A DNA stretch of 64,000 nt from Streptomyces sp. CG4 (lineage in GTDB: Bacteria; Actinomycetota; Actinomycetes; Streptomycetales; Streptomycetaceae), in the NCBI RefSeq assembly GCF_041080655.1, contig NZ_CP163525.1, forward strand, positions 558,001-622,000. The letters are read 5' to 3'. Positions 10,731-50,733 of this stretch are shown here, piece by piece. Position 1 is the first letter of the stretch; each line of letters opens with the position of its first letter. The notes under the pieces were generated by a model that saw only the letters and a list, made by a program, of their open reading frames with translations, did no database searches and was not told where the DNA came from. Made by a program: the position numbers and the translations under genes.

Positions 10731-12479
10731 ATGACACGTCCGAGACCCGTACGCGCCCTGCTCGCAGGCCTGACCACGCTGGCCGCCTCCGCCGGGCTCG
10801 CCCTGGGGGCCGGAGGCACCGCGCACGCGGCGACCCCGCTGCCCACGCATGTCTTCGCGCCCTACTTCGAGGCCTACAACGGCGACAGCCCCGCCGCGCT
10901 CTCCCAGGCCTCCGGCGCCAAGTATCTGACCATGGCCTTTCTGCAGGCCGACAAGAAGGGCTCCTGCACCCCGTACTGGAACGGCGACACCAACACGCCC
11001 GTCAGCTCCTCGGTCTTCGGCGCCGACCTCACCACCATCCGCTCGCGCGGCGGCGACGTGATCCCCTCCCTCGGCGGCTACGCGGCCGACAACGGCGGCA
11101 CCGAGATCGCCGACAGCTGCACGAACGTGGATTCCATCGCCGCGGCCTACGAGAAGATCATCACGACCTACGACGTCTCCCGGCTCGACATGGACGTCGA
11201 GGACAACTCCCTCACCGACAGCGCCGGTATCGACCGCCGCAACCAGGCCATCAAGAAGGTTCAGGACTGGGCGGCCGCCAACGGCCGCTCGGTGCAGTTC
11301 TCGTACACCCTGCCGACCACGACGACCGGGCTCGCCGACAGCGGCCTCGCCGTGCTGCGCAGCGCGAAGAGCGCGGGTGCCAAGGTCGACGTCGTCAACA
11401 TCATGACGTTCGACTACTACGACGGCGCCACCCACCACATGGCCACCGACACCGAGACGGCCGCGACCGGACTGCACGACCAACTGGCCGAGCTGTACCC
11501 CAACCTGTCGGACACCCAGCTGTGGAACATGGTCGGCGTCACCGAGATGCCTGGCATCGACGACTACGGCGCGGCGGAGACCTTCACCACCGCCGACGCG
11601 ACGAGCGTGTACGACTGGGCGGTCTCCAAGGGTGTCAACACCCTCTCCTTCTGGGCCCTGCAGCGCGACAACGGCGGTTGCCCCGGCACCGGCGGGTCCG
11701 ACCACTGCTCCGGTATCGCCCAGGACACCTGGTACTTCACCCACGCCTTCGCACCCTTCACCGGCGGTACGACGACCCCGCCGGCCGACGACTTCTCGGT
11801 GTCCCTGTCCCCCGCCACCGCCGCGGTCGACCCCGGCGCCACCGCGACGGCGACCGTGAAGACGTCCGTGACCTCCGGCGGCGCCCAGCCCGTCGATCTG
11901 TCGGTGAGCGGCGCGCCGAGCGGAGTCACCGCCTCGCTGAGCCCGTCCTCGGTCACCGCGGGCGGCACCGCCACGCTCACCGTGAAGACGGCCGCCTCAA
12001 CAGCACCCGGCACCTACACCCTGACCGTCACCGGCACGGCGGGCTCGACCCGGCACGGCTCCGCGCTCACCCTGACGGTCAACGGATCCGGCGGCACGGC
12101 CGTCCTCGCCAACGGCGGCTTCGAGACCGGCTCGCTCACGCCGTGGACCTGCGACACCGGAGCCTCGGTCGTCTCCTCCCCCGTGCACGGCGGCTCCCAC
12201 GCGCTGAAGACCGCGCCCTCCGCCTCGCAGACCGGCCGGTGCGCCCAGACCCTGACCCTGAAGCCCAACACCTCCTACACGCTGAGCGGTTGGGTGCAGG
12301 GTCCGTACGCCTACCTCGGCGTCAGCGGGGGCGCGACGGCCAGTTCCTGGACCTCGTCCTCGTCGTGGTCACAGCTCACGGTGCCCTTCACGACCGGCTC
12401 CTCGGGCACGGTCACGGTGTATGTGCACGGCTGGTACGGCCAGGGAGCGGTGTACGCCGACGACCTGACCGTGAGCTGA
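10731..12479 (+). CDS. Secreted GH18 chitinase with Ig-like and carbohydrate-binding domains
   Basis: 582 residues. A signal peptide (RPRPVRALLAGL, hydrophobic run, AHAA cleavage site near residue 34) leads to a GH18 barrel, about residues 36-345, with the catalytic line SRLDMDVED (D153, D155, acid E157) and a downstream MTFDYYDG. Next come a Ser/Thr/Pro-rich Ig-like module, about 350-450 (FSVSLSPATAAVDPGATATATV), and a C-terminal carbohydrate-binding domain from about 457 (NGGFETGSLTPWTCD, ending in VYADDLTVS). It hydrolyses chitin outside the cell to GlcNAc oligomers. DasR-type repeats upstream give a regulatory link to chitin and GlcNAc metabolism. Confidence 0.9.
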   Translation: MTRPRPVRALLAGLTTLAASAGLALGAGGTAHAATPLPTHVFAPYFEAYNGDSPAALSQASGAKYLTMAFLQADKKGSCTPYWNGDTNTPVSSSVFGADLTTIRSRGGDVIPSLGGYAADNGGTEIADSCTNVDSIAAAYEKIITTYDVSRLDMDVEDNSLTDSAGIDRRNQAIKKVQDWAAANGRSVQFSYTLPTTTTGLADSGLAVLRSAKSAGAKVDVVNIMTFDYYDGATHHMATDTETAATGLHDQLAELYPNLSDTQLWNMVGVTEMPGIDDYGAAETFTTADATSVYDWAVSKGVNTLSFWALQRDNGGCPGTGGSDHCSGIAQDTWYFTHAFAPFTGGTTTPPADDFSVSLSPATAAVDPGATATATVKTSVTSGGAQPVDLSVSGAPSGVTASLSPSSVTAGGTATLTVKTAASTAPGTYTLTVTGTAGSTRHGSALTLTVNGSGGTAVLANGGFETGSLTPWTCDTGASVVSSPVHGGSHALKTAPSASQTGRCAQTLTLKPNTSYTLSGWVQGPYAYLGVSGGATASSWTSSSSWSQLTVPFTTGSSGTVTVYVHGWYGQGAVYADDLTVS

Positions 12480-12494
12480 TCCCCCGCTCCGCGC

Positions 12495-12523
12495 GGCCCC
12501 GTTCGGTGATCACCGGCGGGGCC
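12495..12523 (+). terminator. Hairpin after the chitinase gene
   Basis: GGCCCCG at 12495-12501 pairs with CGGGGCC at 12517-12523. The inner CGGTGATCACCG can extend the stem. It starts 15 bases after the chitinase stop and has no U-tract. Confidence 0.65.
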
Positions 12524-12910
12524 GATCCATGCCCCCGCCGAGCCCCGCTGCCCGATCCGGCGTCCGGGCGGTGTCTTCCGTAGGCTGAAGGTACCCGAAG
12601 CCACTCCGCTGGATCCCGGCCCTGTGCCTGTGCCTGTGCCTCGGCGGGCCGGCCGGGGCCGTACTGCTGTCCGGGCACCTTCGCCGACCGCGGCGTCACG
12701 GCGTTCCTGCGGTCCTGGCAGACGTACGGCTTCGCGCTGACCGGCGTCGCCGCCTTGGCTCGTACCGGAGGCGTGCGATGCGCTGCTGATCGTCGTGGGC
12801 GTGGTGGTGCTCAGCCGGGCCGTCCAGGACATCACCGTGGCACCGGTGCGGGCGGAACAGTGGATCCCGGCGACCTGAGCCGGGCCGGGGACCGCCCCAC
12901 GGGGCTTTGC
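12524..12910. other. 387-base gap, possible decayed small membrane protein
   Basis: No intact gene is visible. A plus-strand frame at about 12780-12878 encodes a hydrophobic run (LLIVVGVVVLSRAVQDITVAPV) before a stop, and upstream frames give other fragments, as if a short membrane protein had been frameshifted. It is not supported well enough to call a gene. Confidence 0.3.
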
Positions 12911-13963
12911 CTACCGTCGCCGAGGGCGTGTCAGCCGTACGTCCGCCACGCCGAGCAGGCCGAGGAGCGGGACCTTGCCGGTCGTCTGACCGGGGTCGAC
13001 GACGAGTCCCGAGCCGCGGACCAGGTCCAGCAACAGCTCGGCGAGCGGCATCACCATGTGTCTGCCCCAGCAGCGTTCGGAGGAGTGGCCGAAGGGCAGA
13101 TAGCCCGGAGTCGTCTCGGGGTCGAGGTCGTCCCAGCGCTCCGGGCGGAAGGCGTCCGGGTCGTCCCACAGGGCCGGGTCACGGTGGGACAGCAGTGGCA
13201 GCACCAGGACGTCGTCCCGCTCGCCGATCCGGTCGTCGATGGCCGGGTACTCGGGCGAGGCGTTGCGCAGGATGTTCCACGAGGGCGGCAGCAGCCGCAG
13301 GGACTCGAGGATGATGTTGCGGTGGGGTGGGGCGTCGCCGAAGGGCGCTCCGAGCCAGAGCGCGTTGGCCACCAGCGTCGAGACGGTGAAGCACACGGGG
13401 GCGGCCGCCCTGCGGTACATGCCCATGGCGTACCGGCGTTCCTGGTAGCCGGTGGCCTGTGCGGCTCGGCTCGCGAGACCGGTGAGCCGGCTGCTCGGCC
13501 GGGGCCAGCCGGGCAGCGCGGCGCCGATTGCGATCACGGACCAGGTGAGCTTCGGGGTGAGTTCGAGAGTGCGGCTCATCAGCATGCGCAGCCGGTAGGG
13601 GTCCTGGCCGAGGATGAGGTCGCGCAGGAAGAGATGCCCGGTCAGCGGCCAGGAGCCGGCCAAGTCCACGTCCTTGGGCAGCGGCCCGGCCAGTGCCTCG
13701 CGTACGTCGTTGCCGATGGTGCGGGTGACCGTGGACGCCTCGGTGCGTGTGATGGAACGCCCGTGCAGCGGCTTGAAGGTGGGCCGCTCGGTCTCCGTCG
13801 CCCGGCGTGCGGCGAGGATGCGATCGGCGACCTCGTGTCCCGCGACTCCGATCGTGTCGGGTTCCAGCCGGAAGACGTCCTGTCCTGTGTGGGTGCCCAT
13901 GAGCGCGGCGAGCCGCGGGGAGAACACGGTGGTGCGCACACGCGTGGCGGAGGGCGGCGGCAT
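12911..13963 (-). CDS. Cytochrome P450, probable atropopeptide-crosslinking enzyme
   Basis: 350 residues from the ATG at 13963, which has GGGAG five bases upstream; an ATG at 14065 would give 384 but lacks a ribosome site. P450 hallmarks are present: ExxR as ESLR (E220, R223), PERW, and the haem-binding loop PFGHSSERCWG with Cys298. The loop is atypical: the usual Gly two residues after FG is Ser, and the usual Arg/His two before Cys is Glu. The I-helix region (APVCFTVST) lacks the common A-G-x-D-T motif. The gene lies 167 bases downstream of a precursor peptide ending AWYLWY, on the same strand. In tryptorubin-type pathways one P450 forms the C-C and C-N bonds between aromatic side chains; that role is inferred here. 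Confidence 0.8.
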   Translation of the reverse strand: MPPPSATRVRTTVFSPRLAALMGTHTGQDVFRLEPDTIGVAGHEVADRILAARRATETERPTFKPLHGRSITRTEASTVTRTIGNDVREALAGPLPKDVDLAGSWPLTGHLFLRDLILGQDPYRLRMLMSRTLELTPKLTWSVIAIGAALPGWPRPSSRLTGLASRAAQATGYQERRYAMGMYRRAAAPVCFTVSTLVANALWLGAPFGDAPPHRNIILESLRLLPPSWNILRNASPEYPAIDDRIGERDDVLVLPLLSHRDPALWDDPDAFRPERWDDLDPETTPGYLPFGHSSERCWGRHMVMPLAELLLDLVRGSGLVVDPGQTTGKVPLLGLLGVADVRLTRPRRR

Positions 13964-14095
13964 GGATGCTCCCGGTGGCGAACGGGCAGGTGGGGAAGAG
14001 TGCGAGGGAACCGAAGGCCGCGGTACGGCGTACCACCGTTGTCCGGCCGGGCCGTGACCACGCATGGCCGGACAACGATGTCACCTCGCCTGCGC

Positions 14096-14130
14096 GGCGT
14101 GGCGTGGCGTGGCGTGGCGTGGCGTGGCGT
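14096..14130. repeat. Seven tandem copies of GGCGT
   Basis: Seven perfect GGCGT units run from 14096 to 14130. The last base is also the last base of the precursor peptide stop codon (14130-14132 on the complement). The repeat fills the start of the spacer between the precursor and P450 genes. Such pentanucleotide runs change length easily by slippage, but here a change would not alter either protein. Confidence 0.85.
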
Positions 14131-14210
14131 CAGTACCAGAGGTACCAGGCGTTGGCCTTGAGGCTCTTGGCGGCCGCGACCTTGTTGCGGATGGCGAAGA
14201 GAAGCTTCAT
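14130..14210 (-). CDS. Atropopeptide-like RiPP precursor peptide (core AWYLWY)
   Basis: A 26-codon gene: ATG at 14210, stop TGA at 14130-14132. The start is preceded by a perfect AGGAGGT seven bases upstream. The peptide begins MKLLFAIRNK, continues with an Ala/Lys-rich leader and ends KSLKAN-AWYLWY. The last six residues match the tryptorubin core AWYIWY except Leu for Ile. A short basic leader, an aromatic C-terminus reaching the stop codon and an adjacent P450 gene are the defining features of atropopeptide clusters. The expected product is a hexapeptide with crosslinked Trp and Tyr side chains after leader removal. No dedicated protease or exporter is visible nearby, which is also true of the known minimal clusters. 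Confidence 0.85.
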   Translation of the reverse strand: MKLLFAIRNKVAAAKSLKANAWYLWY

Positions 14211-14292
14211 CACTGCACCTCCTGGAGAGGGTGGGCGGGTGACACACGGCGACACCGAAGCAGATCGGTGAAGATCATGTGTCGATGACTCC

Positions 14293-14320
14293 GGGAAACT
14301 TCCCTTGTCCGACCGTCGGA
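14293..14320. promoter_or_regulatory. Paired palindromes upstream of the precursor gene
   Basis: GGGAAACTTCCC (14293-14304; arms GGGAA/TTCCC) and TCCGACCGTCGGA (14308-14320; arms TCCGAC/GTCGGA) lie side by side 83-110 bases upstream of the precursor start. They are candidate regulator sites for the precursor/P450 transcript. The rest of 14211-14563 shows no gene. Confidence 0.45.
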
Positions 14321-14563
14321 TAATCGCCACGGGAATCAAAATCGTTCCGGCCTGGCCGATTTCGGACTTTCTCCATTCACCGGCGCTCCGCTTTGACCAA
14401 CCACCCAGCAGCGCGCGCCCCCCGCGCCCCTTCCGACCCTCGCGCGCTGATGAGAGGACGTGCCGGCCGTCCGGATGCCGGACGGCTCGACAGTGGGAGC
14501 GGACACCCGCCCGGTCTCCGCCCAGCCCTTCAGCGGCCGGAGATTGGCCAGATAGAAGGGGTC

Positions 14564-15217
14564 CTATCGTCCCGCGATCCCGTCGATCCAGGACTGGAGG
14601 CGTTCGCCCTGGACAGTCATCAGGCCGGGGTCGCGCAAGGTGTTGGTGAGGACGGACATGCCCTGGTAGGCGGCGACGAGTTCGACGGCGAGGGCGTCGG
14701 CGTCGGCGCGGCCGAGCTGGGTGAACTGGGCCTCCACCCAGGCGAGCAGAGCTCGCATGACCTTCGCCGCGGCTTGATCCAGGCCGTCGTCCCGCTTGTC
14801 GAGCTCGGTGGCGAGGGTGCCGAAGGGGCAGCCGAAGCGGGCCGCGGTCTCGCGCTGGTCGACCCAGCCGGCGACAAGCGCCTTCAGTCGGGCCGCCGGA
14901 TCCGGAAAGGCATCCAACTGGGCAGTCAGCGCGTCGAGTTGCTCGCGGTGGGCGTGCACCGCGGCGTCGACGAGCTGGTCCTTGGTCTTGAAGTAGTAGT
15001 AGACGTTGCCCAGCGGAACCTCGGCCGCGCGGGCGATGTCACCGAGGGTGGTCTTCTCCACGCCCTGCTCATGGAAGACCTGGACGGCCGCCGTCACCAG
15101 GCGCTCGCGCTTGCCTCCCCGGCTGCCGCCGTGGCCTGATCGACCGGATCGGCTCGACCGCGCGGCCTCGGCCGTCCCCGCAATATCTGAGTCAGTCACC
15201 TGACTAAGGATAGACAA
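14564..15217 (-). CDS. TetR-family regulator
   Basis: 217 residues if the TTG at 15217 is used; a GTG at 15199 is an alternative that would place one operator half over the start. After a low-complexity Ser/Gly/Arg stretch, the helix-turn-helix is clear: RLVTAAVQVFHEQGVEKTTLGDIARAAEVPLGNVYYYFKTKDQLV. The C-terminal ligand-binding domain includes RFGCPFGTLATEL. TetR proteins repress as dimers until an inducer binds. It is divergent from the NmrA-like gene at 15283, with palindromes between, so it likely controls that gene and itself. Confidence 0.85.
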   Translation of the reverse strand: MSILSQVTDSDIAGTAEAARSSRSGRSGHGGSRGGKRERLVTAAVQVFHEQGVEKTTLGDIARAAEVPLGNVYYYFKTKDQLVDAAVHAHREQLDALTAQLDAFPDPAARLKALVAGWVDQRETAARFGCPFGTLATELDKRDDGLDQAAAKVMRALLAWVEAQFTQLGRADADALAVELVAAYQGMSVLTNTLRDPGLMTVQGERLQSWIDGIAGR

Positions 15218-15262
15218 CGAGGTCCGCCACGGACTAATGTCTCGACTTAGTTAGTCAACTAA
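15190..15262. promoter_or_regulatory. TetR operator candidates
   Basis: TTAGTT-AGTC-AACTAA (15247-15262) is a perfect 6-bp inverted repeat. AGTCA/TGACT arms at 15190-15194 and 15201-15205 form a second one. Both lie in the divergent space between the TetR and NmrA-like genes and share the (T)AGT..ACT(A) theme. Confidence 0.6.
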
Positions 15263-15282
15263 CTCACACAGGGAGAGTTGCC

Positions 15283-16104
15283 ATGATCGTTGTCACGGGC
15301 GCCACGGGGAACGTCGGACGGGCCCTGGTCGCCGAGTTGATCGAGGGCGGGGAGACGGTGACAGCCGTCGCCCGGCACATCAGGACGGAGGACGTGCCGC
15401 CGGGCGTGCGGGCAGTAGCTGCCGATCTCGGGCGGCCTCAGGCCCTCGCCCCCGCCCTGGAAGGCGCCAAGGCACTGTTCCTGCTGGTGGCCGGCGAGGA
15501 TCCCGCCGGCATCCTGCAGCAAGCCGCCGCGGCCGGGGTCACCAAGGTCGTGCTGCTCTCCTCGCAGGGTGCGGGCACCCGGCCCGAGATATACACGCAC
15601 GCGTTGCGCTTCGAGCAGGCCCTGGCCGAGTCGGGCCTCCCCATCACCGTCCTACGCTCGGGCGGGCTGGCCTCCAACGCGCTGGCCTGGGCGGAGCCGA
15701 TCCGCCGGCACCGTACCGCGGCGGCGCCCTTCGCCGATGTGGCACTGCCGTTCGTCGACCCTGACGATGTCGCCGCGGTGGCGTCGGCCGTACTGCGTGA
15801 GGACGGACACGACGGCGCCACCTACACACTGACCGGCCCGGAGCCCACCACCCCTCGGCAGCGGGCCGTCGCCATCGCCGCGGTACTCGGCGAGCCGGTG
15901 GCGTTCGTGGAGCAGAGCCGCGAGGAGGCTCTGGCGCAGATGGTCCGGTTCATGCCGCCCGCCGTCGCCAAGGGCACGCTCGCGGTCCTCGGCTCACCCA
16001 CCCAGGAGGAGCAGACGGTCGGCACGGACGTCGAGCGCCTGCTGGGCCGCCCCGCGGCCGCTTTCTCCGCGTGGGCGGCACGGAATGTGACGGCGTTCCG
16101 CTGA
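15283..16104 (+). CDS. NmrA-like NAD(P)-binding protein
   Basis: 273 residues from ATG 15283 (GGGAGAG upstream). The N-terminal Rossmann motif is VTGATGNVGRALV. Strand 4 (VTKVVLLSSQGAG) follows, and no YxxxK pair is in the usual place, which fits the NmrA/azoreductase-like atypical SDR group. Such proteins bind NAD(P)(H) and act either as quinone/azo reductases or as redox sensors. The gene is single and divergent from its probable TetR repressor. It resembles the gene at 23355 in overall layout but not in detail. Confidence 0.8.
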   Translation: MIVVTGATGNVGRALVAELIEGGETVTAVARHIRTEDVPPGVRAVAADLGRPQALAPALEGAKALFLLVAGEDPAGILQQAAAAGVTKVVLLSSQGAGTRPEIYTHALRFEQALAESGLPITVLRSGGLASNALAWAEPIRRHRTAAAPFADVALPFVDPDDVAAVASAVLREDGHDGATYTLTGPEPTTPRQRAVAIAAVLGEPVAFVEQSREEALAQMVRFMPPAVAKGTLAVLGSPTQEEQTVGTDVERLLGRPAAAFSAWAARNVTAFR

Positions 16105-43971: not shown

Positions 43972-45165
43972 GTGGCGCACCAGGCTGGTCGGGTGAAGGA
44001 CGAACGGACCGGCCGGGAGCCGGAGGACGCCGCCGCGCTCCGGCCCCGGTTGCCGGCGCCGCCGCTGTGGCTGCGCTGGCTTCCGGTCCTCTACGTCGCG
44101 GCCGTCCTGCTGCTGGAGCCGGTCACGCCCGTGGACTGGCCGGTGAGCTTCGCGCTGATCTGCGTGCCCGTGCTGGCCGCGTTCGCGCACGGGCCGCGGG
44201 GCGTCGCCGCGGCCACGGTGTTCTCCGTCGTCCTCGAAGGGGTGCTGGCCGGTACGCCGTGCTGCGCGGGCCGCGCCGTCGGCTATCTGTGGGACCGTCA
44301 CTACGTCGCCTCCTACATCTGTACGGCCCTGGTGGGCGGCCTCGGCACGATCCTGGCCGCCCACCGGATCCGGCGGGAACGCACGCTCGCCGACGTCCGG
44401 TTCGTGGCCGAGACCGCGCAGCGCGTCCTGCTGCGCCCCGTGCCGCACCACATCGGCAACCTCCGGCTGGAGAGCCTCTACCTGTCCGCGAGCGCGGAGG
44501 CCCGCATCGGCGGTGACCTCTACGAGGCGGTTCCCACCCGCTTCGGGGTCCGCCTGCTCATCGGCGACGTCCGTGGCAAGGGACTGCTGGCGGTGGAGAC
44601 CGCCGCCACGCTGCTCGGCGCGTTCCGCGAGGCGGCGTACGACGAACCCGATCTGCCCGCGCTGGCCGGCCGGGCGGACAGGAGCATGAACCGCAGGGCG
44701 GCGCAGCTCGGCGGAACCGAGACGGGCGAGCGGTTCGTCACCGCGGTGTTCGCGGAGATCCCTGCCGACGGGCACATCGTCCGCCTCGTCAACTGCGGCC
44801 ATCCGCCGCCCATCTCCCTGCGGGACGGCGAGGTGTGCGAACTGGACAGCGGGCGGCCGGCGCCGCCCCTGACCCTCGGCAAGCTGGTCGAGGACCCGTA
44901 CCACGTCGACGAGTACCCCTTCCGGCCCGGTGATCAGCTGCTGCTGTACACGGACGGCGTCACGGAGACGCGGGACGCGGCGGGCGCCTTCTATCCGCTG
45001 CTCCAGCGGCTGCGCGCCTGGGGTCCCCTGCCGCCGAAGGAGCTGCTCGACCGACTCCACGACGACCTGTTGGCCTACAGCTGCAACAGGATGCAGGACG
45101 ACACCGCGGCGCTCGCGGTCTGTCTGGTTCCCGAGCCGCCGTCGGCGACGGCACCGGCCGAGTGA
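43972..45165 (+). CDS. Membrane-bound SpoIIE-family PP2C phosphatase
   Basis: 397 residues if the GTG at 43972 is used (43993 is an alternative). Three or four N-terminal hydrophobic helices (LPVLYVAAVLLLEPV, FALICVPVLAAFAHG, YICTALVGGLGTILAA) precede the phosphatase. The catalytic domain has ARIGGDLYEA, LLIGDVRGKGLLAVETAATLLG, VNCGHPPPISL, and LLLYTDGVTETRD, with metal Asp residues in GGD, GDV and DGV. Such proteins dephosphorylate anti-sigma-factor antagonists in partner-switching systems. No sensor PAS/GAF domain is seen; the membrane part may sense. Confidence 0.85.
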   Translation: MAHQAGRVKDERTGREPEDAAALRPRLPAPPLWLRWLPVLYVAAVLLLEPVTPVDWPVSFALICVPVLAAFAHGPRGVAAATVFSVVLEGVLAGTPCCAGRAVGYLWDRHYVASYICTALVGGLGTILAAHRIRRERTLADVRFVAETAQRVLLRPVPHHIGNLRLESLYLSASAEARIGGDLYEAVPTRFGVRLLIGDVRGKGLLAVETAATLLGAFREAAYDEPDLPALAGRADRSMNRRAAQLGGTETGERFVTAVFAEIPADGHIVRLVNCGHPPPISLRDGEVCELDSGRPAPPLTLGKLVEDPYHVDEYPFRPGDQLLLYTDGVTETRDAAGAFYPLLQRLRAWGPLPPKELLDRLHDDLLAYSCNRMQDDTAALAVCLVPEPPSATAPAE

Positions 45166-46089: not shown

Positions 46090-48549
46090 TCAGGGGATCT
46101 CCTGTTCGGCCCAGATGATCTTCCCTTCGGCGGTGTAGCGGGCGCCCCAGCGCTGGGCGAGCTGGGCGACCAGGAAGAGCCCACGGCCGCCCTCGTCCGT
46201 GCTCCTGGCGTGTCGGAGCCGGGGGGCCGTACTGCTGGCGTCGGAGACCTCGCAGGTGAGGCGGGTGTCGCGGAGGAGTCGTAGCCGGATGGGCGGGGTC
46301 GCGTAGCGGAGGGCGTTGGTGACCAGTTCGCTGACGATGAGTTCCGTCGTCATGGCCGTTTCCGCGCCGAGGCCCCAGTCCTCGACCTGGCGGGTTGCCT
46401 GGGCGCGCAGGGTGCCGACGGCGGCCGGGTCGGGCAGGACGTCCCAGGAGGCGACCTGGTCGGCGCCGAGCACATGGGTGCGGGTCAGCAGCAGGGCGAT
46501 GTCGTCGGACTGCGGCACGGGCACGAGCGCGCGCACGGCGGAGGTGCACAGCGCCTCCAGGTCCTCGCCGGTACGGGTGAGGGCCTGTGCGAGCAGCGAC
46601 ATGCCACGCTCCACGTCGTGGTCGCAGCCCTCGATGAGGCCGTTGGTGTAGAGGCCGAAGAGGCTGTTCTCGGGAAGTTCGATCTCGGTGGCCTCGAAGG
46701 CCATTCCACCGAGGCCGAGTGGTGGGCCGACGGGGATCTCCGGGAAGTGGGCAGGTTCGTCCGGTGTCACGACGACGGGCGGCGGGTGTCCGGCCCGGGC
46801 CATCGCGCACCGCCGGGTGACGGGGTCGTAGACGGCGTAGAGGCAGGTCGCGCCGATGAAGGTGCTCCGGGCGGCCGTGCCGGCGGCGGCCTCCTCGTCG
46901 CTGAGCCGGAGCACGAGGTCGTCGAGGTGGGCGAGCAGGTCGTCGGGGGGCATCTCCATGGCGGCGAGGGTCTGGACAGCCGTGCGCAGCCGGCCCATAC
47001 CGGCCGCCGCGGCGATGCCGTGGCCCACGACGTCACCGACGACGAGACCCACGCGGGCGCCGGACAGCGGGATCACGTCGAACCAGTCGCCGCCGACGCC
47101 TCCGGAGGGGTCCGCCGGCCGGTAGGAGGAGGCCACCTCCAGCGCGGTGCCGCCCGTCAGGGCGGGTGGCAGCAGGCTGCGCTGGAGGGTGATCGCCGCC
47201 GTGTGCTCCCTGGTGTAGCGGCGGGCGTTGTCCACGCAGACGGCGGCACGGGCCACGAGTTCCCGGGCCAGCAGGACGTCGTCGGTCCCGAAGGAGACCG
47301 GGTTGACCGACCGGGCGAATGTGGCGAGGCCGAGGGGGGTGTTGCGGGCCCGCATGGGCACGGCGATGACCGAGTGCAGGCCGTACTCGCGGACGCGTGC
47401 CGTCCGCTCCGGATCCCGTGTGACCCACAGCTCGTCGGACGGGTCGAGGACCGGGATGAGCACCGGCTCGCCGTCGATGACCAGGTGCGCGTCGTGGGGC
47501 GGCGGGAGGAAGTCGACACGCTCGCCGATCCGGACGACGGCCTCGGGAGTGCCCTCGCGCACCGAGCGCTGCGCCGCCCGGCGCATCACCGGCCTGGCGG
47601 GCGCCGGGCCCGCATCGCTCAGCCATGCTCCGTGACCCTCGGTGCTGAGCACGGGTTCCAGCAGGTCGACGATGACGAAGTCGGCGAAGCGGGGGACGGC
47701 GAAGTCGGCGAGTTCCTGGGCGGTCCGCATCACGTCGAGGGTCCGGCCGATGCTGGTACCGGCTTCGTTGACCATGGTCAGCAGCCGGCGGGCGTTCCAG
47801 CGCTCGGTGACGTCCTGGACCATGTAGCAGACACCGGTGACGGCGTCCTCGGCGTCCACCAGCGGGAAGAACGAGGTCGCGTAGGCGTGCCGGCGGTGCG
47901 GGTCGGCCCAGCACCAGCCGACGTACTCGTAGTCGGTGACCGGCACGCCGGTGGCGAGCACGTCGCGCATCAGGTTTTCCAGGCCCGCCGCCTGCAACCC
48001 GGGCAGCAACTCGCCCAGCCGCTTGCCGAGCCGCTCGTCACCGGGGACCCCGCTCATGCGTTCCAGGGTGTCGTTCACCCAGACGTACCGCAGCTCGGTG
48101 TCCAGGACGGCCAGGCCGACCGGCGAGCGGGTCAGGAACCCGTCCAGGACCGACTGGCCCATGGTCCACCGCTGCCGCTGTTCGCGGGCCGACACCAGGA
48201 AGCAATCGGTGTGGCCCATCCGGAACGACGCCGAGACCCGCAGCTGGACGTCGAGGCGGCGGCCGTCCCGGTGTCGTACGGCGATCTGGCCGCTCCAGCC
48301 GTTTCCGGCGCGGCACCGCGCCACGACACCGGCGAGCCGTGCCGGGTCCTCGGGCATGGCAAGCAGGCGCGCGGCGGAGACACCGACGACGTCCGGTGCC
48401 GCGTGGCCGAGGAGTACTTCGGCGCTGCGGGTCCAGCCGACGACGATGCCGTCTTCCGATATCACCGCGGCCGCGTCGGTGGACGCGTCGAAGAGATCAC
48501 CCGGTCCCCCGGGTGGGCCCGCGGCGAAGCCCTCTCGCGCAGATTCCAT
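46090..48549 (-). CDS. PAS-PAS-GAF SpoIIE phosphatase with HATPase domain
   Basis: 819 residues from ATG 48549 (an ATG at 48558 is also possible; neither has a strong ribosome site). Domains in order: PAS about 20-130 (DAAAVISEDGIVVGWTRSAEVLLG), PAS about 140-265 (SPVGLAVLDTELRYVWVND), GAF about 275-450 with VIAVPMRARNTPLGL, PP2C about 460-680 (GVGGDWFDVIPLSG, VVGDVVGHGIAAAAGMGRLR, ARAGHPPPV), and a C-terminal anti-sigma-like ATPase about 690-819 (TELIVSELVTNALRY, GGRGLFLVAQLAQRWG). The phosphatase and kinase-type domains in one chain point to partner-switching signalling. Divergent from the similar gene at 48667. Confidence 0.9.
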   Translation of the reverse strand: MESAREGFAAGPPGGPGDLFDASTDAAAVISEDGIVVGWTRSAEVLLGHAAPDVVGVSAARLLAMPEDPARLAGVVARCRAGNGWSGQIAVRHRDGRRLDVQLRVSASFRMGHTDCFLVSAREQRQRWTMGQSVLDGFLTRSPVGLAVLDTELRYVWVNDTLERMSGVPGDERLGKRLGELLPGLQAAGLENLMRDVLATGVPVTDYEYVGWCWADPHRRHAYATSFFPLVDAEDAVTGVCYMVQDVTERWNARRLLTMVNEAGTSIGRTLDVMRTAQELADFAVPRFADFVIVDLLEPVLSTEGHGAWLSDAGPAPARPVMRRAAQRSVREGTPEAVVRIGERVDFLPPPHDAHLVIDGEPVLIPVLDPSDELWVTRDPERTARVREYGLHSVIAVPMRARNTPLGLATFARSVNPVSFGTDDVLLARELVARAAVCVDNARRYTREHTAAITLQRSLLPPALTGGTALEVASSYRPADPSGGVGGDWFDVIPLSGARVGLVVGDVVGHGIAAAAGMGRLRTAVQTLAAMEMPPDDLLAHLDDLVLRLSDEEAAAGTAARSTFIGATCLYAVYDPVTRRCAMARAGHPPPVVVTPDEPAHFPEIPVGPPLGLGGMAFEATEIELPENSLFGLYTNGLIEGCDHDVERGMSLLAQALTRTGEDLEALCTSAVRALVPVPQSDDIALLLTRTHVLGADQVASWDVLPDPAAVGTLRAQATRQVEDWGLGAETAMTTELIVSELVTNALRYATPPIRLRLLRDTRLTCEVSDASSTAPRLRHARSTDEGGRGLFLVAQLAQRWGARYTAEGKIIWAEQEIP

Positions 48550-48666
48550 CAAATACACCCATACACCACTATGAGACAGTTTCTACAGTGGTGTGCACGG
48601 ATACTCCGCAAAGACCGGTCGTCCGTAGTCGTGCACGCCCGTCCGGCCGGTGGAGGTGAACCCGGC

Positions 48667-50733
48667 ATGGCAGTGAACTCCTTCGAAGCCGGCCACGACG
48701 GGCAACGTACCGAGCTGCCCCGGCCGACCGGGCTGCTGGATGTGCTGAGTGTGGCCGCGGTGGCCCTGGACACCCGCGGCCGGATCGTCTTCTGGACCCC
48801 GCAGGCCGAGGAACTCTTCGGATACTCCTCGGAGGAGGCGCTCGGCAAGCATGCGGCGCGCCTGCTCATCCATCCGGAACATCTGCAGGCCGTGGTGGGT
48901 CTGTTCACGGAGGTGCTGGAGACCGGCCGGGGCTGGGCCGGCGCCTTCCCGGTCCGGCACAAGGACGGCAGCAGCCGGCTCACCGAGTTCCGGACCATGC
49001 GGCTGCTGGACGATCTCGGGGACGTCTACGCCCTCGGCATCGCGGCGGACCACACGCTGCTCCAGCGCGTCGAGACCGATCTGGCGCTGTGCGAGCAGCT
49101 GATCAACCAGTCCCCGATCGGTCTGGCCCTGCTCGACCCCGAGCTGCGCTATCTCCTGGTCAATCCGGCGCTGGAGCGGATCGACGGCATTCCCGCCGAG
49201 GAGCACATCGGCCGCCACCTGCGGGAGACGCTGCCCCTGCCGGACGTCGAGACCGTCGAGTCCGCCCTGCGCCAGGTGCTCACCACCGGTACGCCGCTCC
49301 TCGACCAGTACCACGTCGGCCGCCCCCCGGGCGATCCCGGCCACGAGCACGCCTGGTCGCTGTCGTTCTACCGCCTGGAGGATCCCGGCGGGCGGGTCCT
49401 GGGCGCGGCCGCCTCGGTCGTCGACGTCACCGAGCGGCATCGCGCGGCGGCCGAGGCCGACCGGGCGCGGCGGCGCCTGGCGCTGATCGCGGACGCCTCC
49501 GCGCGGGTCGGCACCGCGCTGGACGTGGAGCAGACGGCCCATGAGCTGGCGGAGATCGCCGCGCCGGCGCTGGCCGACGTGGTCGCCGTGGACGTTCTCG
49601 ACTCCGCGCTGTCCTGCCGTCGTATCAGCAGACCGGACAACGGCCCGGAGCTGTTCCGGGCCCTCGCCCTCAAGGCCGCCCACCCCACGGTCGCGCTGCG
49701 CGCCGCCGACCCGCCCGGCGACATCGCCGCCTACGCGGGTGACCGTCTGGTGACCCTGTGCGTCCACACCGGGCGACCGGTCCTGGTGCCCCATGTGGGG
49801 CCGCATGATCTGCCGCGCATCGCCCGGGACGCGGCGGCCGGCGCCCTGCTGGCGGAGGCCGGTGTCCACTCGTATCTCGCGGTGCCGCTGATCGCGCACG
49901 GCGAGGTGCTCGGCGCCCTCGATCTCAAGCGGACCCGCAATCCGGCGCCGTTCGACGAGGACGACATCGTGCTGGCCGCCGAACTCGCCGGCCGAGCCGC
50001 CGTCGCCATCGACAACGCCCGCTGGTTCCAGAGCGTCCGCAACACCGCGCTCACCCTGCAGCGCAGTCTGCTGCCCGACCACCCGGCGCTCCACACGGGC
50101 CTGGAACTCGCCTCCCGCTATCAGCCCGCGCAGGCGACGAGCGAGGTCGGCGGCGACTGGTACGACGTCATCCCGCTCGCCGACGACAAGACCGCCCTGG
50201 TGGTCGGCGACGTCATGGGCAACGGCATCGACGCGGCCGCCACCATGGGCCGGCTGCGCACGGCCACCTGCGCCTACGCCGATGTCGACCTCGCCCCCGA
50301 CGCGGTGCTCCAGCACCTGGACAAGATCACCTGCGATCTGGAGCACTACATCGTCACCTGCCTGTACGCGGTGTACGAACCCCGCACCGGGAGGTGCAGC
50401 ATCGCCAACGCCGGGCACATGCCGCCCGCGCTGGCGCGTCCCGGCGAGCCGCCGCGGCTCCTGGACCTGCCGGCCGGGGCGCCGCTCGGCGTCGGCGGCA
50501 TCCGGTTCGAGACCACGACGGTCCCGCTGCGTCCGGGCGACCTGCTGGTCCTTTACACCGACGGCCTCGTGGAGACCCGTCAGCACGCCATCGACGACCG
50601 GCTGAACGCCCTGCTGGACATCCTCGACGAACCGCGCCGGCCGCTGGAGCAGATCTGCGACGCCCTGCTGTACGGACTGCGCAACCCCGACGACCACGAC
50701 GACGTGGCCCTGCTCGTCGCCCGCGCCCTGTAG
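48667..50733 (+). CDS. PAS-PAS-GAF SpoIIE-family phosphatase
   Basis: 688 residues from ATG 48667 with GGAGGTGA eight bases upstream. PAS domains lie at about 20-125 (VAALDTRGRIVFWTPQAEELFGYS in essence) and 145-265 (SPIGLALLDPELRYLLVNPALERIDG). The GAF domain is at about 280-450 (SYLAVPLIAHGEVLGALDLKR). The PP2C domain is at about 465-688 (SEVGGDWYDVIPLAD, VVGDVMGNGIDAAATMGRLRT, ANAGHMPPAL, LVLYTDGLVETR). Unlike its divergent neighbour it lacks the C-terminal ATPase domain. It likely dephosphorylates an STAS-type antagonist in response to a small ligand or redox signal. The pair probably arose by duplication. Confidence 0.9.
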   Translation: MAVNSFEAGHDGQRTELPRPTGLLDVLSVAAVALDTRGRIVFWTPQAEELFGYSSEEALGKHAARLLIHPEHLQAVVGLFTEVLETGRGWAGAFPVRHKDGSSRLTEFRTMRLLDDLGDVYALGIAADHTLLQRVETDLALCEQLINQSPIGLALLDPELRYLLVNPALERIDGIPAEEHIGRHLRETLPLPDVETVESALRQVLTTGTPLLDQYHVGRPPGDPGHEHAWSLSFYRLEDPGGRVLGAAASVVDVTERHRAAAEADRARRRLALIADASARVGTALDVEQTAHELAEIAAPALADVVAVDVLDSALSCRRISRPDNGPELFRALALKAAHPTVALRAADPPGDIAAYAGDRLVTLCVHTGRPVLVPHVGPHDLPRIARDAAAGALLAEAGVHSYLAVPLIAHGEVLGALDLKRTRNPAPFDEDDIVLAAELAGRAAVAIDNARWFQSVRNTALTLQRSLLPDHPALHTGLELASRYQPAQATSEVGGDWYDVIPLADDKTALVVGDVMGNGIDAAATMGRLRTATCAYADVDLAPDAVLQHLDKITCDLEHYIVTCLYAVYEPRTGRCSIANAGHMPPALARPGEPPRLLDLPAGAPLGVGGIRFETTTVPLRPGDLLVLYTDGLVETRQHAIDDRLNALLDILDEPRRPLEQICDALLYGLRNPDDHDDVALLVARAL

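Follow-up and report, generated by a model that had tools for sequence, protein, structure and literature searches.

The locus lies on the reverse strand of the 64-kb window (the whole 64,000-nucleotide stretch of DNA that was analyzed) and consists of a short precursor peptide gene followed by a cytochrome P450 gene. The precursor gene (14130..14210, minus strand) reads from 14210 to 14130, with 26 codons and a TGA stop codon, and its translation is MKLLFAIRNKVAAAKSLKANAWYLWY. It carries the KSLK leader motif, which is the family motif according to PMC11450843, at codons 15 to 18 (14157..14168, minus strand). Its C terminus is KSLKAN-AWYLWY, in which AWYLWY is the predicted core (codons 21 to 26; 14133..14150, minus strand). 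An AGGAGGT ribosome-binding site (14217..14223, minus strand) sits six bases upstream of the ATG, and AGGTGCAGTGATG at this site is nearly invariant among 14 aligned relatives. A sequence-only reading of this DNA had described the 26-codon gene, its AGGAGGT site, its KSLKAN-AWYLWY terminus, and a P450 gene on the same strand, and sequence and translation confirmed all of them. The precursor matches NCBIfam NF038372 (tryptorubin_fam) over all 26 positions at 52.1 bits, the cut-off being 33. It is the sole tryptorubin-family match in its own 10.2-Mb genome, where it is also above the cut-off. A KSLKxxxWxxWx terminus was found in 1 of 1,728 stop-to-stop segments of the 64-kb window (both strands, three frames each).

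Upstream of the precursor gene, a MAFFT alignment of 14 relatives, the jum locus among them, revealed a conserved block, GATTAT ... GGGAAG ... GATCTTCACC (14267..14325, minus strand), which is possibly a promoter or operator. A scan of positions 12400 to 15300, this block included, found no match to a consensus sigma-70 promoter. On the other side, a tandem array of GCGTG (7.8 copies, 97% match; 14092..14130, minus strand) begins on the final base of the precursor stop codon. Among the best 80 of 234 relatives, four have the flanking GH18 gene, and the TetR and NmrA-like neighbors on the other flank occur in two each. Because these flanking genes are not conserved, we take the unit to be two genes. 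Elsewhere in the window are two SpoIIE-type phosphatase genes (43972-45165 and 46474-50733), the second of which encodes a 1,419-residue protein containing multiple PAS and GAF domains. Both are on the same strand as nearby genes for GH92 and GH5 glycosidases.

The P450 gene (12911..13963, minus strand) is an open reading frame of 350 codons plus a stop codon, and its product is the predicted cross-linking enzyme. Its ExxR motif (E220/R223) and heme cysteine (C298; 350-residue numbering) are both invariant in an alignment of 33 sequences. The longest P450 reading frame begins at an ATG at 14065, within the intergenic hairpin described below. We favor the ATG at 13963 as the start because the closest relatives have about 348 to 350 residues and because GGGAG, a likely ribosome-binding site, is at 13969..13973 (minus strand). 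With this start, the spacer between the precursor and P450 genes is 166 nt. The Pfam match spans only residues 216 to 311 of the 350-residue reading. Decay or truncation of the gene was considered as the cause of this short match, and it was ruled out by the equal length of the relatives and by a predicted model that covers the whole P450 fold (mean pLDDT, 76.8; residues 55 to 69 and 229 to 234 are below 50). Most P450s have a longer J-helix region between the I and K helices. In the predicted model (12914-13963), the P450 of this family is short: its I helix has 32 residues, and the K helix follows after only about 10 more.

These sequence features support the assignment of the pair as a minimal atropopeptide (tryptorubin-type) locus, typical of a known family of which more than 650 clusters have been reported (PMC11450843). 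That report defines atropopeptides by a Trp in the second core position together with a KSLK motif, which it places at precursor residues 17 to 20. The precursor in the window has KSLK in its leader at codons 15 to 18 and Trp at position 2 of AWYLWY. With A-W-Y-L-W-Y behind a KSLK leader, it also has the xWxxWx pattern of the bitryptide subfamily, the definition of which is cited in PMC11450843. The neighboring P450 belongs to the atropopeptide clade and is nested in a 71-P450 tree that was built without an outgroup P450 family by a quick method, with 20 of 68 inner branches left open and L012 and L080 added by hand. The window P450 is 78% identical to the characterized jum P450 (L059, NZ_VCLA01000160.1, S. 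jumonjinensis), and heterologous expression of the jum locus on that contig led to amyxirubin B (PMC11450843). The closest relative, L001 (Streptomyces sp. IMTB 2501), has an identical core, a precursor that is one residue apart (A15T), and a P450 that is 95% identical over 348 columns, whereas its spacer has no GCGTG array.

A precursor with a hexapeptide core was readable at 75 of the 80 P450 loci among the best 80 of 234 relatives. The remaining loci (L020, L047, L064, L076, and L077) encode a family P450 without a pattern-readable precursor, and they may have a divergent precursor or none. When 392 genomes were sampled in the genus, 44 had a match, 42 of them above the cut-off. An atropopeptide locus with the core AWYIWW also lies on linear plasmids (L112, Streptomyces clavuligerus plasmid pF1D18A); the gene table of that record has the P450 but not the precursor. 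Clustering of the P450 with unrelated families and lack of conservation of the short gene would each have spoken against the sequence-only reading. Neither was found, since the P450 lies in the atropopeptide clade and the precursor is readable at those 75 of 80 loci. With the NCBIfam cut-off also passed, the identification of the locus as an atropopeptide locus stands, but the novelty that had been claimed for its Leu residue is not supported.

That claim had presented Leu at core position 4 as a point of interest. Among the 75 readable cores from the best 80 of 234 relatives, AWYIWY occurred 21 times, AWYLWY 20 times, AWYFWY 15 times, AWYGWI 5 times, SWYIWY and AWYHWY 4 times each, VWYLWY twice, and AWYVWY, AWYAWY, AWYIWF, and AWYIWW once each. 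The AWYLWY carriers in this set include Xanthomonas, Luteibacter, and Burkholderia records. In the 71-P450 tree, core position 4 varies among I, L, F, H, G, V, and A with 20 parsimony changes, and Leu at this position (23 rows) accounts for 10 parsimony changes. The window locus groups there with L001 and further AWYLWY loci. Also, the P450 ScaB accepted ScaA-I25L, another precursor in which the matching residue had been changed to Leu (PMC12352619). Leu at core position 4 is therefore ordinary, and the free natural sampling of this position speaks against Leu being disruptive there. A literature search for AWYLWY found no paper. The Leu product would be isobaric with tryptorubin A, since Leu and Ile do not differ in mass, so the LC-MS check proposed in the sequence-only reading, which overlooks this, could not tell the two apart.

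By analogy with characterized relatives, the KSLK leader would dock on the P450, which would cross-link the two Trp residues of the core and the neighboring Tyr residues via aryl bonds with a loss of about four hydrogens, as for varsorubin B1. A host protease encoded outside the locus would then release the hexapeptide and also a pentapeptide without the Ala. This follows the published model, in which the leader recruits the P450, the core is cross-linked, and a cluster-external protease frees the peptide (PMC11450843). We infer that the locus makes a cross-linked AWYLWY peptide. A simpler P450 product than tryptorubin, such as a peptide joined by just one Trp-Trp bond or a shortened tetrapeptide, is unlikely but has precedents: the sva locus also yields a one-bond product, the sca locus yields a one-bond tetrapeptide, and the authors of that work consider P450 phylogeny to be a poor predictor of structure (PMC11450843). 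Against it, the window core departs from that of tryptorubin A only in having Leu where the latter has Ile, and tryptorubin B was obtained when lauA and lauB1 were coexpressed (PMC11450843).

The spacer between the two genes contains a predicted GC-rich hairpin (14034..14080, minus strand). Its 15-pair stem, CATCGTTGTCCGGCC / GGCCGGACAACGGTG, has arms at 14066-14080 and 14034-14048, and it was called from the fold and from compensatory changes in relatives. The local fold has a free energy of -31.7 kcal/mol and a z-score of -2.74. The z-score of the whole 166-nt spacer is only +0.3, no better than that of shuffled sequences, and the GCGTG array may mask its folding signal. Because the stem ends 70 nt upstream of the P450 start, the hairpin leaves the P450 ribosome-binding site uncovered. 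No U-tract terminator was found in the window region (scan of 12400 to 15300). Rfam gave no match above the gathering score and two weak matches (E values of 0.72 and 0.76), neither of which is at the hairpin.

Pairing is conserved in the relatives. In alignment A1, standard pairs make up 96.1% of the cells of 17 pairs across 16 of the 19 loci of the window's clade, a count that leans towards structure because L009 and L014, which formed no stem, and L094, which had no anchor, were omitted (L012 and L080 were manual additions). Compensatory changes on both sides occurred in 5 of the 17 pairs. None of 500 shuffles reached the covariation score of A1, 2 of 500 reached its number of both-side pairs, and pairing was 30 to 61% in versions in which the arms were slid. 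Eight both-side events were counted by parsimony on the P450 tree (15 of 16 taxa; L093 is absent from the tree). The sense strand has 32 G-U cells versus 2 A-C cells, an excess that fits RNA pairing because a DNA dyad under selection would show no preference between G-U and A-C. Alignment A2, from a second clade of 12 loci with an unrelated stem, has both-side changes in 3 of 12 pairs. Its further pair types were not above those of shuffles (195 of 500), and it has no G-U excess (1 G-U and 3 A-C). No loop or stem sequence is common to the clades. The intergenic hairpin is well supported as a conserved structure.

We extended the folding analysis to the spacers of the relatives, using z-scores against dinucleotide-preserving shuffles. 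A precursor-P450 pair was assigned at 92 of 111 loci, and 19 were missed by the search patterns or at contig ends. Of the 92 spacers, 79 were used, including that of the window itself; duplicates, very short spacers, and those with N were omitted. Nearly every spacer has an inverted repeat, and its sequence is unrelated between clades. The median z-score of the 79 distinct spacers was -3.3, with 58 below -2 and 46 below -3. The corresponding counts were 4 of 79 and 0 of 79 for same-length stretches within the P450 gene and 14 of 79 and 5 of 79 for those taken 5' of the precursor. Other co-directional gaps at the same loci, called by a crude purpose-made gene caller, gave 21 of 79 below -2 and 14 of 79 below -3. 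The difference between the spacers and these gaps has a Mann-Whitney P value of 3e-10, with shared ancestry ignored. Convergent gaps gave 5 of 23 and 4 of 23. Perfect arms of at least 9 bp were present in 48 of 79 spacers versus 5 of 79 and 4 of 79 in two control sets.

Collapsing related P450s weakens the hairpin signal. At 90, 80, and 75% P450 identity, the median z-scores were -3.1, -2.7, and -2.65, and the clusters below -3 numbered 25 of 46, 9 of 24, and 4 of 12, respectively. The short spacers of L067, L070, and L073 have no hairpin, and 6 of the 12 listed loci from outside the Streptomycetaceae have z-scores above -2. The spacer of L112, on the S. clavuligerus plasmid, also has a hairpin. 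The antisense fold was more stable in 55 of 79 whole spacers, but the controls were biased alike, and the sense strand is not favored. A U-tract (at least five T in the 10 nt past the stem) was found in only 4 of 79 spacers.

How the hairpin might act is suggested by its position, by its strand bias, and by what is known of other RiPP operons. The precursor and P450 genes would share one transcript, and the hairpin would either lower read-through into the P450 gene or shield the short precursor mRNA at its 3' end. RiPP precursor genes are commonly first in their operons and followed by imperfect terminators that damp the later genes (PMC7113386). By this analogy, the hairpin is likely to be an attenuator or processing element that sets the peptide-to-enzyme ratio, with the enzyme scarcer than the peptide. 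Between precursor and enzyme gene, the window has the stable hairpin expected of an attenuator, but no U-tract follows it. Because U-tracts are rare in the spacers and there is none in the window, a canonical intrinsic terminator is unsupported. A broader proposal is that atropopeptide operons share a conserved RNA switch-point, a fast-evolving and always re-paired hairpin under base-pairing selection, which sets this ratio and whose sequence is replaced entirely from one clade to the next. We regard that proposal as evenly balanced between holding and failing.

The alternative that survives best, and one to be taken seriously even if we would not bet on it, is that the hairpin is mainly a processing or 3'-stabilizing element of the precursor mRNA. 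Polymerase would read through, and the P450 part of the transcript would decay faster. The scarcity of U-tracts past stems that are commonly strong fits this alternative, as does the fact that the clades share pairing and not a specific binding sequence, with no loop or stem sequence linking them. However, terminators without a U-tract have been described in actinomycetes. Attenuators are, moreover, the usual arrangement after RiPP precursors (PMC7113386). It is improbable that the arms are instead a DNA operator for a regulator and the hairpin a by-product. The arm in the window's clade, GACATCGTTGTC, is itself a GACA-TGTC dyad, and the 5' arm is steadier than the 3' arm (16 versus 29 parsimony changes), but the compensatory pairs and the one-strand excess of G-U over A-C (32 versus 2) fit RNA pairing, and other clades carry sequence-unrelated stems at the same place. 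Equally doubtful is that the hairpins reflect chance or the ordinary level of operon spacers in GC-rich actinomycete intergenic DNA, because, although 14 of 79 other co-directional gaps also reach z-scores below -3 and the whole spacer of the window scores +0.3, the spacers reach 46 of 79 (P = 3e-10, ancestry ignored) against dinucleotide-preserving shuffles, they have compensatory changes, and the cluster medians hold at -3.1, -2.7, and -2.65.

The locus is one more AWYLWY member of a well-charted family, and the hairpin, the function of which we infer, is the single addition. We consider it very probable that this is a minimal atropopeptide locus with an intact precursor, an intact predicted cross-linking P450, and a conserved hairpin spacer that is likely an attenuator or processing site giving more peptide than enzyme. 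Insertion of a ribosome-binding site before svaB increased yield 100-fold (PMC11450843). This means that P450 expression can be limiting, and it says nothing about the hairpin. If the RNA switch-point proposal is true, it would help to explain both this gain and the poor expression of characterized clusters. If the hairpin works as proposed, it would be a simple control element whose removal or retention would allow yield to be adjusted easily, and a short open reading frame, a hairpin, and a short P450 gene would together be a search signature for such loci. The main texts of PMC11450843 and PMC12352619 do not consider such an element in heterologous expression, and neither contains the words hairpin, terminator, stem-loop, or intergenic.

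The arrangement can be compared with known systems. Atropopeptide spacers mostly have no U-tract and are known here from sequence, in which they differ from RiPP attenuators such as that between btmD and btmE in the bottromycin cluster, but these likewise have a stable hairpin 3' of the precursor and before the enzyme gene (PMC7113386). The tryptorubin A (trp) locus, the founding member of the atropopeptides, with the P450 WP_007820080.1, was compared by layout and precursor. It has the same order of precursor and then P450, a KSLK leader, and a six-residue xWYxWY core, and the window differs from it at core position 4, where Leu replaces Ile. Tryptorubin A has the core AWYIWY, with which the WYIWY given in PMC12352619 is consistent. 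The jum locus (L059) differs in its core, AWYIWW versus AWYLWY in the window, but it resembles the window locus in its P450 (78% identical), in its gene order, and in having a spacer hairpin (fold z-score, -3.5).
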